Source: Candidatus Competibacteraceae bacterium (GTDB lineage Bacteria > Pseudomonadota > Gammaproteobacteria > Competibacterales > Competibacteraceae). From it: a DNA stretch of 52,848 nt. The notes beneath the pieces are model-generated. The model saw only the letters and a list, made by a program, of their open reading frames with translations, was not told where the DNA came from and made no database searches. Position 1 is the first letter of the stretch; each line of letters begins with the position of its first letter. A program made the position numbers and the translations under genes. This document shows positions 50,966 to 52,848 of this stretch, piece by piece. The stretch spans positions 1-52,848 of the forward strand of contig RXIX01000010.1 in NCBI GenBank assembly GCA_003989075.1, written 5' to 3'.

Positions 50966-51938
50966 ACCCACTGCATCCGAATTCACCCTGATTGAGCGCT
51001 ATTTCGCCGCGCAGGGCCGCCAGAGACCCGACGTGGTACTGGGCATCGGCGATGACGGTGCACTGCTGCTGCCGGCGGCGGATCAGCACCTGGTGGTGAC
51101 CCTGGATACGCTGGTTGCCGATGTGCATTTTTTCGCCGATACCGATCCGCAAGGGCTGGGCCACAAGGCGCTGGCGGTGAATCTGAGCGATCTGGCGGCG
51201 ATGGGCGCGACGCCGGCCTGGATCACGCTGGGTTTGACCCTGCCCAGAGCCGATGCCCTGTGGCTGGCGCGCTTTTGCCAGGGTCTGTTTGCGCTGGCGG
51301 ATCGGTATGGCGTGCAACTGGTGGGGGGCGACACCACCCATGGCCCAGGCCCGGTGATCTCGATTCAGGCCCATGGCTTTGTGCCGCCGGGACAGGCCCT
51401 GCGTCGTGATGGCGCCCGACCGGGCGATGTGCTGTATGTCACCGGCACGCCCGGCGATGCCGGATTGGCGTTGGCGGCGGCCTTGGGCACGGCGACGGTC
51501 GCGGCTGAGCATCGCGCCTTTATCCAGCAGCGGCTGGAACGCCCGGAGCCACGCATGGCCCAGGGGCTGGCCCTGCGCGGCATTGCCAGTGCCGCTATCG
51601 ATGTCTCGGATGGGCTGGCGCAGGATCTGGGGCATGTGCTCAGGCGCAGTGGCGTCGGCGCGCGCCTGGTGGTGGACCAGTTGCCGTTGTCGCCGGCCCT
51701 GCTGGCGCAGGCGGATCGCGATGTGGCGCTGACCCTGGCGCTGGCCGGCGGTGACGATTACGAGCTGTGCTTTAGCGTGCCGCCGGACCGGGTGGCGCAA
51801 CTGGAACGGGTGGCAGCGGACTGGGAATGCCGCTGCACGCGCCTGGGCGTCATTACGGCGCAGCCGGGTTTGCACCTGCTGCGCGCCGATGGCCACACTT
51901 TTCCTCTGCAGCGAGGCGGTTATGACCATTTCAACTGA
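50946..51938 (+). CDS. thiL: Thiamine-monophosphate kinase
   Basis: ThiL phosphorylates thiamine monophosphate to the active diphosphate. The 330-residue product has GIGDDGALLLPA, TLDTLVADVHFF, GHKALAVNLSDLAAMGATP, LVGGDTTHGP and IDVSDGLAQDLGHVL, all family motifs for Mg-ATP and substrate binding. It overlaps both the small membrane protein gene (20 bases) and pgpA (17 bases). Confidence 0.95.
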   Translation: MSNIPPEPTASEFTLIERYFAAQGRQRPDVVLGIGDDGALLLPAADQHLVVTLDTLVADVHFFADTDPQGLGHKALAVNLSDLAAMGATPAWITLGLTLPRADALWLARFCQGLFALADRYGVQLVGGDTTHGPGPVISIQAHGFVPPGQALRRDGARPGDVLYVTGTPGDAGLALAAALGTATVAAEHRAFIQQRLERPEPRMAQGLALRGIASAAIDVSDGLAQDLGHVLRRSGVGARLVVDQLPLSPALLAQADRDVALTLALAGGDDYELCFSVPPDRVAQLERVAADWECRCTRLGVITAQPGLHLLRADGHTFPLQRGGYDHFN

Positions 51939-52425
51939 ACGGCCTTGCGCACGGGTTTTCCGCGACCCGGTGCATTTTCTCGCCCTCGGCTTTGGGTCCG
52001 GTTGTGCGCCAAAAGCGCCCGGCACGTTTGGCACGCTGGCGGCGATCCCGCTCTATCTGCTGATGCAGCCGTTGCCGCTGTGGATTTACCTGCTGCTGAC
52101 CGGCGCCGGCTTCGTGCTTGGCATCTGGATCTGCGACCGCGCCGCCCGCGACCTGGGGGTGCATGATCACCCGGCGATCGTCTGGGATGAAGTGATTGGC
52201 TATTTCGTGACCATGATCGCTGCGCCGCCGGGCTGGCTGTGGATCGTCATCGGTTTCGCGCTGTTTCGGCTGTTCGATATTCTCAAGCCCTGGCCGATTC
52301 GCCGCGCCGATCAGCGCATTGGCGGCGGCTTTGGCATCATGTTCGATGACCTGCTGGCGGCCGGCTATGCCTGGCTGCTGTTGCAGGGATTGGCCCATGG
52401 CGTGCGCCTACTGGACATGGGCTAA
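51922..52425 (+). CDS. pgpA: Phosphatidylglycerophosphatase A
   Basis: PgpA removes the phosphate from phosphatidylglycerophosphate at the inner membrane. The 167-residue product has GSGCAPKAPGTFGTLAA, HDHPAIVWDEVIGYFVTM and FDILKPWPIRRADQR, with a C-terminal FGIMFDDLLAAGYA. The start overlaps the end of thiL; thiL-pgpA is a conserved pair. Confidence 0.94.
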   Translation: MTISTERPCARVFRDPVHFLALGFGSGCAPKAPGTFGTLAAIPLYLLMQPLPLWIYLLLTGAGFVLGIWICDRAARDLGVHDHPAIVWDEVIGYFVTMIAAPPGWLWIVIGFALFRLFDILKPWPIRRADQRIGGGFGIMFDDLLAAGYAWLLLQGLAHGVRLLDMG

Positions 52426-52473
52426 GGCTCGCGTCCAGACTTTGCGTGTGTCTCCCCCGCAACCGCTGGAATC

Positions 52474-52848
52474 CGCACAGTCAACTACCCCCGCCTGAAG
52501 GCGGGAGCTTGTGAAAACAGGCTCGGTTGACCAGCCTAAGCCTGCCTAACCGGGATGTTGAAAGGGGCTACGTTGCGTAGAGGTTCAAGACCTACCTTGG
52601 GATGCTTCCTCAGTCCCAAGCTCTAGAAGCCCTGGTTGCAGACACGCATAGGGTAAGCACGAAACGGATTGGGGCGTAATGCCGCTACGCAACATTGGCG
52701 AGGGGAGCGAAGCCGCAAGGCTTCCGTCACTAGGCCCTTTACGGGGCAGAGTCTCACGACCCGGCAGGTGGAAAGCCTGCACCCATTCAACTCTGATAGC
52801 TGACCTAACAGGAGAGCGAGAAGAGGGGAACGCTTCGCGTTCCGCGCT
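52474..52848 (+). ncRNA. HEARO/omega RNA of an IscB-type element (element continues past the window)
   Basis: No credible gene is present after pgpA. The sequence is highly structured. GTCAAC (52480-52485) pairs with GTTGAC (52526-52531), enclosing a hairpin CCCGCC/GGCGGG (52490-52505) with a TGAA loop. CTTGGGA/TCCCAAG forms a second stem (about 52597-52620). GTTGCGTAG (52572-52580) matches CTACGCAAC (52685-52693), a nine-base long-range pair. GAAGCC/GGCTTC closes a GCAA loop (52709-52724), and GGAACGC/GCGTTCC a final stem (52827-52843). The start matches omega RNAs encoded upstream of IscB nucleases, whose guide comes from the bases just 5' of the scaffold (about 52458-52473). The iscB gene is predicted just right of the window. 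Confidence 0.82.

Follow-up and report, generated by a model that had tools for sequence, protein, structure and literature searches.

A predicted ORF-less IscB-type element apparently seated between the leader and the start codon of metY in a Candidatus Competibacteraceae genome

Our question was what occupies the noncoding tail behind pgpA at the right edge of a 52,848-nucleotide stretch of a Candidatus Competibacteraceae genome (the window). The window is the entire contig C10, one of the 278 contigs in which this 3.40 Mb genome was assembled. Its right edge is therefore the contig end, an assembly break inside a repeat, and has no meaning as a biological boundary. A reading made from the letters of the DNA (the sequence-only reading) had proposed that the structured omega RNA of an IscB element lies here. 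The upstream neighbour pgpA is outside the element, and its homologues are 81-91% identical in most relatives of the same family that have a match.

The identification as a HEARO/omega RNA was confirmed by the Rfam covariance model for HEARO (RF02033), which finds a full-length match above its gathering threshold (Table 1). The stems and the nine-base long-range pair that had been described at the edge are also present, among them the left-end helix GTCAACT/GGTTGAC, the CCCGCC/GGCGGG hairpin and the GTTGCGTAG/CTACGCAAC pair, although the start of the structured RNA had been put at 52440 and the scaffold actually begins at 52480. The folding energy of the single C10 sequence is not significant (z -1.05) and was dropped as a proof of structure. 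Among 13 distinct ORF-less ("solo") copies of the element from four genomes (G000, G013, G014, G038), 99.0% of cells are paired in the consensus structure. Using this structure, which was taken from the same solo-copy alignment, changes on both sides were counted in 13 pairs (shuffled mean 7.1, 0 of 500 shuffles as high, slid structures 0-2). The cells concerned number 43, compared to a shuffled mean of 15.5 and no more than 2 for slid structures. These compensatory changes argue that the solo RNAs are, or until recently were, under selection as scaffolds, and part of the covariation may predate the loss of iscB and stem from iscB-bearing ancestors. With a match over the whole model and a conserved structure that covaries, the C10 RNA can be classed as an omega RNA of the HEARO/IscB type.

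Given such an RNA, the edge could be the left part of a complete IscB/IsrB element with its nuclease gene just right of the window, which is where the sequence-only reading had expected iscB. HEARO RNAs usually precede iscB or isrB, and relatives hold iscB-bearing elements with the same ends. However, C10 runs for 135 bases beyond the omega RNA in collinearity with C19 and C47, which are complete copies of 413 bp (GTCAAC to CATCYG) without an IscB ORF. In the element on contig C7, which holds the single intact IscB of the genome, iscB starts about 50 bases after the omega RNA, and the C10 sequence extends past the equivalent point. Since C10 stays collinear with ORF-less copies past this point and the only IscB lies on C7, the C10 copy is not part of an iscB-carrying element. 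An iscB or isrB ORF is absent directly downstream of the C10 omega RNA, an iscB in the missing 44-bp piece was discarded on the same collinearity with the solo copies, and on C151 it is metY that follows the right end. We therefore regard the complete element as highly improbable. Judged from its sequence, the C10 element is an ORF-less derivative of an IscB-type element, 413 bp long. The join of C10 to C151 rests on synteny and on 24 identical overlapping bases, not on reads. Similar contig breaks end 7 solo left halves and begin 7 solo right halves. The element keeps its two ends and has no iscB, most simply through an internal deletion.

Table 1. Features at the right edge of the window and genes at the right ends of solo elements
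Feature	Position	Strand	Evidence or remark
pgpA (phosphatidylglycerophosphatase A), upstream neighbour	51922..52425	+	NCBIfam PRK11068, 175 bits, below the cut-off of 226 bits
Predicted natural guide CGCTGGAATCCGCACA, former metY leader with Shine-Dalgarno-like GGAA	52464..52479	+	directly 5' of scaffold; in nine relatives it is the leader in front of metY that aligns here
Solo element, first 369 of 413 bp	52480..52848	+	collinear with C19 and C47 (both complete); the other 44 bp, and metY, on C151 (synteny)
Omega RNA scaffold (HEARO, RF02033)	52480..52713	+	cmscan, full length (model 1-211), 125 bits against a gathering threshold of 83 bits, E 4e-27; covariation among solo copies
Left-end helix GTCAACT (52480-52486) / GGTTGAC (52525-52531), two hairpins inside	52480..52531	+	helices 1-3, 96.6-100% of cells paired
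Nine-base long-range pair GTTGCGTAG (52572-52580) / CTACGCAAC (52685-52693)	52572..52693	+	helix 7, 98.7% of cells paired, 2 pairs changed on both sides
C19 right end			sixA-like phosphatase starts
C47 right end			DUF2505 starts
C90 right end			periplasmic binding protein of modA type starts
C80, C60 and C187 right ends			unassigned proteins of 123, 66 and 391 aa start
C127 right end			nadC starts
C151 right end			metY starts

The flanks of the element tell us where it was inserted. In relatives of the same family metY directly follows pgpA, and when the left flank on C10 and the right flank on C151 are joined (CCGCTGGAATCCGCACA-ATGAAAATTGAAACC) the result aligns across the junction with nine empty sites, without a target duplication and with leader lengths that differ by at most 1-2 bases. 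The joined flanks of C47 (CCAAGGAGAAATC-ATGAAAATTAAAGCC) have the same arrangement of Shine-Dalgarno and ATG as the empty site of the relatives, so that in both cases the joined flanks equal empty sites and no target-site duplication is seen. By these alignments the C10 element is placed exactly between the Shine-Dalgarno region and the ATG of metY. Since the joined flanks recreate the pgpA-metY junction of nine relatives, the start codon ATGA would be the TAM and the Shine-Dalgarno region of metY the candidate guide. The nine junctions also provide the uninterrupted site after pgpA that had been anticipated in related genomes. The guide had rightly been sought in the upstream flank, but its position has to be moved from 52458-52473 to about 52464-52479, immediately 5' of the scaffold. 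IscB guides are about 16 nt long, and the extent given here for the C10 guide was set accordingly. Its guide role is predicted from the match of the upstream flank to the empty site and the ATGA that follows. The insertion had been described as directly after pgpA, and while pgpA is indeed upstream, the more telling landmark is the metY start codon downstream.

The whole genome has 16 HEARO matches, compared to none in any of 14 control genomes. Nine of them form a tight group of near-identical solo copies (C10, C19, C21, C47, C63, C75, C96, C100 and C161) that are about 98% alike and each sit at a different gene. The HEARO RNA of C7 is a diverged tenth relative of this group, a second group is found on C51, C110, C72 and C32, and a third on C17 and C35. 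The C7 IscB has 457 aa with RRXRR and HNH domains (Pfam), scores 450 bits with NCBIfam guided_IscB, and has IscBs as its nearest solved structures. Its element is inserted at an ATGA with only a 21-codon frame behind it, and has the left end, the omega RNA and the right-end hairpin (...CTCGCG.. and then ATGA) in common with the solo group. Ends held in common with the C7 element and the lack of target-site duplication are what would be expected of a non-autonomous IS200/IS605 (IscB-type) derivative. The C7 omega RNA has clearly diverged from the solo group, and recognition of the solo RNAs by the C7 IscB is thus an assumption.

Taking these observations together, we think it likely that the C10 element derives from an IscB element of the IS200/IS605 kind, has no ORF and is non-autonomous, and that it would serve as an RNA guide for the C7 IscB in trans and be selfishly retained before metY; the action of the nuclease in trans, the mobility of the element and its effects on the host gene we infer. 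Transcripts from host DNA (the pgpA operon or the metY leader) would run through the insertion and give an RNA with the host leader as 5' guide followed by the scaffold. The C7 IscB would bind this solo omega RNA in trans and cut alleles that have lost or never had the insertion, where the metY start codon behind the guide sequence would provide the TAM, ATGA. Repair from an occupied copy would then keep the element. Its movement would depend on a Y1 transposase supplied in trans, a step with less support than the others. An intact IS200-type TnpA was not found in the genome, whose assembly breaks at repeats, and only two Y1 transposase matches were seen in these fragments: a REP-associated tyrosine transposase (C147:2346-2633) and a C-terminal fragment of TnpA (C66:175-336), which adjoins a TnpB-like N-terminus near the contig end. 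The missing TnpA and the lack of a nuclease in the element would also fit solo copies that are decaying relics of IscB elements, neither mobile nor guide RNAs. However, the genome does hold an intact IscB, compensatory changes on both sides are seen among the solo copies of several genomes, very large solo sets exist in other genomes, and nine copies about 98% alike at different genes point to a recent spread. Dead remnants are in our judgment unlikely.

The position before metY is not an isolated case. All nine solo right halves (2 complete, 7 broken) end in ...CATCYG with ATG directly behind, and a clear gene start is found at 8 of these 9 right ends (Table 1), with C62 as the exception. Apparent gene starts follow the right ends in relatives as well, for solo and iscB-bearing elements alike, with L121 as the unclear case. 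From their N-termini we take these frames to be mdh-like (L119), bioD-like (L129), response-regulator-like (L142) and cobI-like (L131), and among the named IscB loci leuB-like after L143 and pth-like after L147 (ATGA). The start after L152, a GTGA element in a Bacillota record, is by its N-terminus presumably pth-like too. On the other side of the insertion, GGAG, AGGA or GAGG is found at -18 to -4 in 14 of 24 left flanks against 8% in the background (P 8e-10), where the flanks come from this genome and its relatives and are not fully independent, and the background is the sequence upstream of the window ATGAs on one contig.

This docking at start codons is seen at nearly all elements of the family relatives, is less marked in a second family that also has ATGA as TAM, and is rare with a GTGA TAM. 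A frame of at least 100 codons starts at about 7 of 12 sampled elements in G268 (ATGA flank), versus about 1 of 9 in G153 (GTGA flank). Such a contrast would be expected if docking has no functional meaning, with insertion needing only an ATGA and selection removing insertions inside genes, and it makes clear that TAM and tolerance matter. Tolerance alone, however, would favour other noncoding ATGAs: in the window, to which this census is confined, rough gene calls leave 68 ATGAs outside called coding sequence compared to 6 called gene starts that read ATGA. Additionally, 8 of 9 at an assumed chance of 20% has a probability of about 2e-5. Docking by TAM and tolerance alone, with no functional meaning, is a real possibility, to which we give a little less than an even chance. 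In our view the TAM is what permits docking, and its enrichment comes from tolerance and perhaps from a benefit to the element.

As to such a benefit, an element docked before a start codon would have its omega RNA in the sense orientation, downstream of host leader DNA, with the coding sequence left intact. Most related elements end in GCGGAGAATCTG or GCGGAAAATCTG before the ATG, which is Shine-Dalgarno-like and at a plausible distance, and this right-end GGAG or GGAAA could stand in for the displaced Shine-Dalgarno. In this genome the solo group has the end GCGCAACATCYG, without a Shine-Dalgarno-like sequence. A fold of the whole leader that bridges Shine-Dalgarno and AUG was also considered and found no support, with folds that differ between C19 and C47. 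More broadly, an IscB clade and its far more numerous solo derivatives may specialise in Shine-Dalgarno/start-codon docking, with the start codon as TAM, the ribosome-binding region as guide, host leader transcription making the guide RNA, the right end giving a new ribosome-binding site in most, and a few IscBs serving more than 100 solo RNAs per genome. We offer this generalization tentatively, as one that could prove right but on which we would not quite bet. It could also be thought that the element is a domesticated regulator, in which the omega RNA in the metY leader and IscB control the downstream gene through leader structure or programmable binding. The copies always lie in sense just before the ATG and displace the native Shine-Dalgarno. 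However, each copy precedes an unrelated gene and relatives have empty sites, which speaks for selfish spread, and the C7 IscB with its RRXRR and HNH regions looks like a nuclease. We find regulation very unlikely.

The scale of the phenomenon becomes apparent when other genomes are compared. Relatives have 15 (G038) and 8 (G013) HEARO matches, and in another family of the same class there are 69 in G268, 37 in G365 and at least 124 in G153, the last a lower bound, for which 141 of the 282 candidates were scored. In each of these five genomes 2-5 IscB genes pass the cut-off, partial ones included. Most sampled copies in G153, G268 and G365 (L165-L204) have no ORF, and their right ends lie 345-393 bases beyond the left end. 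One RNA-guided nuclease is outnumbered by elements that consist of guide RNA only, in this genome by nine solo copies of this type to one IscB. An insertion rule in which the host leader is the guide and the start codon the TAM would account for the transcription of these RNAs, which then need no promoter of their own, and for the tolerance of insertions before housekeeping genes. It also allows direct tests of whether IscB is used in trans and whether retention depends on the guide.

The RNA, the nuclease and the ORF-less derivatives are of known kinds. Solo omega RNAs, and the insertion of HEARO elements beside ATGA or GTGA, were reportedly described by Weinberg in 2009 and Altae-Tran in 2021. 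AwaIscB has an ATGA TAM. The C10 element resembles the HEARO RNA (RF02033) of IscB/OMEGA systems in its full-length covariance match, the guide 5' of the scaffold, its ends and its structure, and it differs from the usual HEARO loci in having no iscB or isrB after the omega RNA. With the IscB elements of the clade (C7; L121, L131, L140, L142, L143-L147) it shares the left end, omega RNA, right-end hairpin and ATGA point before start codons. These carry the nuclease, whereas the C10 solo group does not, and C7 and most relatives end in Shine-Dalgarno-like GCGGAGA or GCGGAAA while the C10 group ends in GCGCAACATC. ORF-less IS200/IS605 derivatives (palindrome-associated transposable elements, MITEs) and solo omega RNAs, known mainly with TnpB or single IscB hosts, are likewise non-autonomous, keep both ends and the guide RNA and have multiplied in one genome. 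Unlike in those, insertion here follows a rule of start codon and Shine-Dalgarno, and a single genome can carry at least 124 HEARO copies. That the elements coincide so systematically with start codons and Shine-Dalgarno guides may not have been described before; no entry listed by keyword literature searches points to start-codon docking by IscB elements, which is weak evidence. IsrB and IscB have a 5' guide and a 3' TAM (PMC9581776). DtIsrB is similar to the present system in its NTGA TAM 3' of the target, with TTGA and ATGA accepted, and in having its omega RNA in front of the ORF (PMC9581776). IsrB, a nickase, has no HNH, whereas the C7 IscB has an HNH region. For TnpB of IS200/IS605 elements, gene-drive action on plasmids with empty sites has been described (PMC11870625).

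Several further features of the genome were noted along the way. The HEARO-like groups on C51, C110, C72 and C32 and on C17 and C35 (L011-L016; 77 and about 30 bits) share sequence 5' of the Rfam start, and GTTGAGTC is complementary to a downstream GACTCAAC, so the Rfam model probably misplaces their 5' end. Another ORF-less family of about 390 bp with a GTCAAC left end (C14:15329, C25:30937 and C55:2027; L067, L069, L077) has the GTCAAC/GGTTGAC pairing and the same right-end hairpin as the C10 group; it gives no HEARO match at E 0.001 and is possibly a variant omega RNA. At the solo right end of C62 (178-215), TCTGATGAAAATT occurs twice in tandem, which gives two candidate TAMs at the insertion point. 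Finally, C27, C38, C48 and C96 (L070, L073, L076, L084) have elements of about 380 bp without an ORF. Their left end, TTGACMTCCTCCCC, is similar to the omega-RNA end seen in TnpB elements, and three of the four right ends have GGAG and then TGATGA at a gene start.
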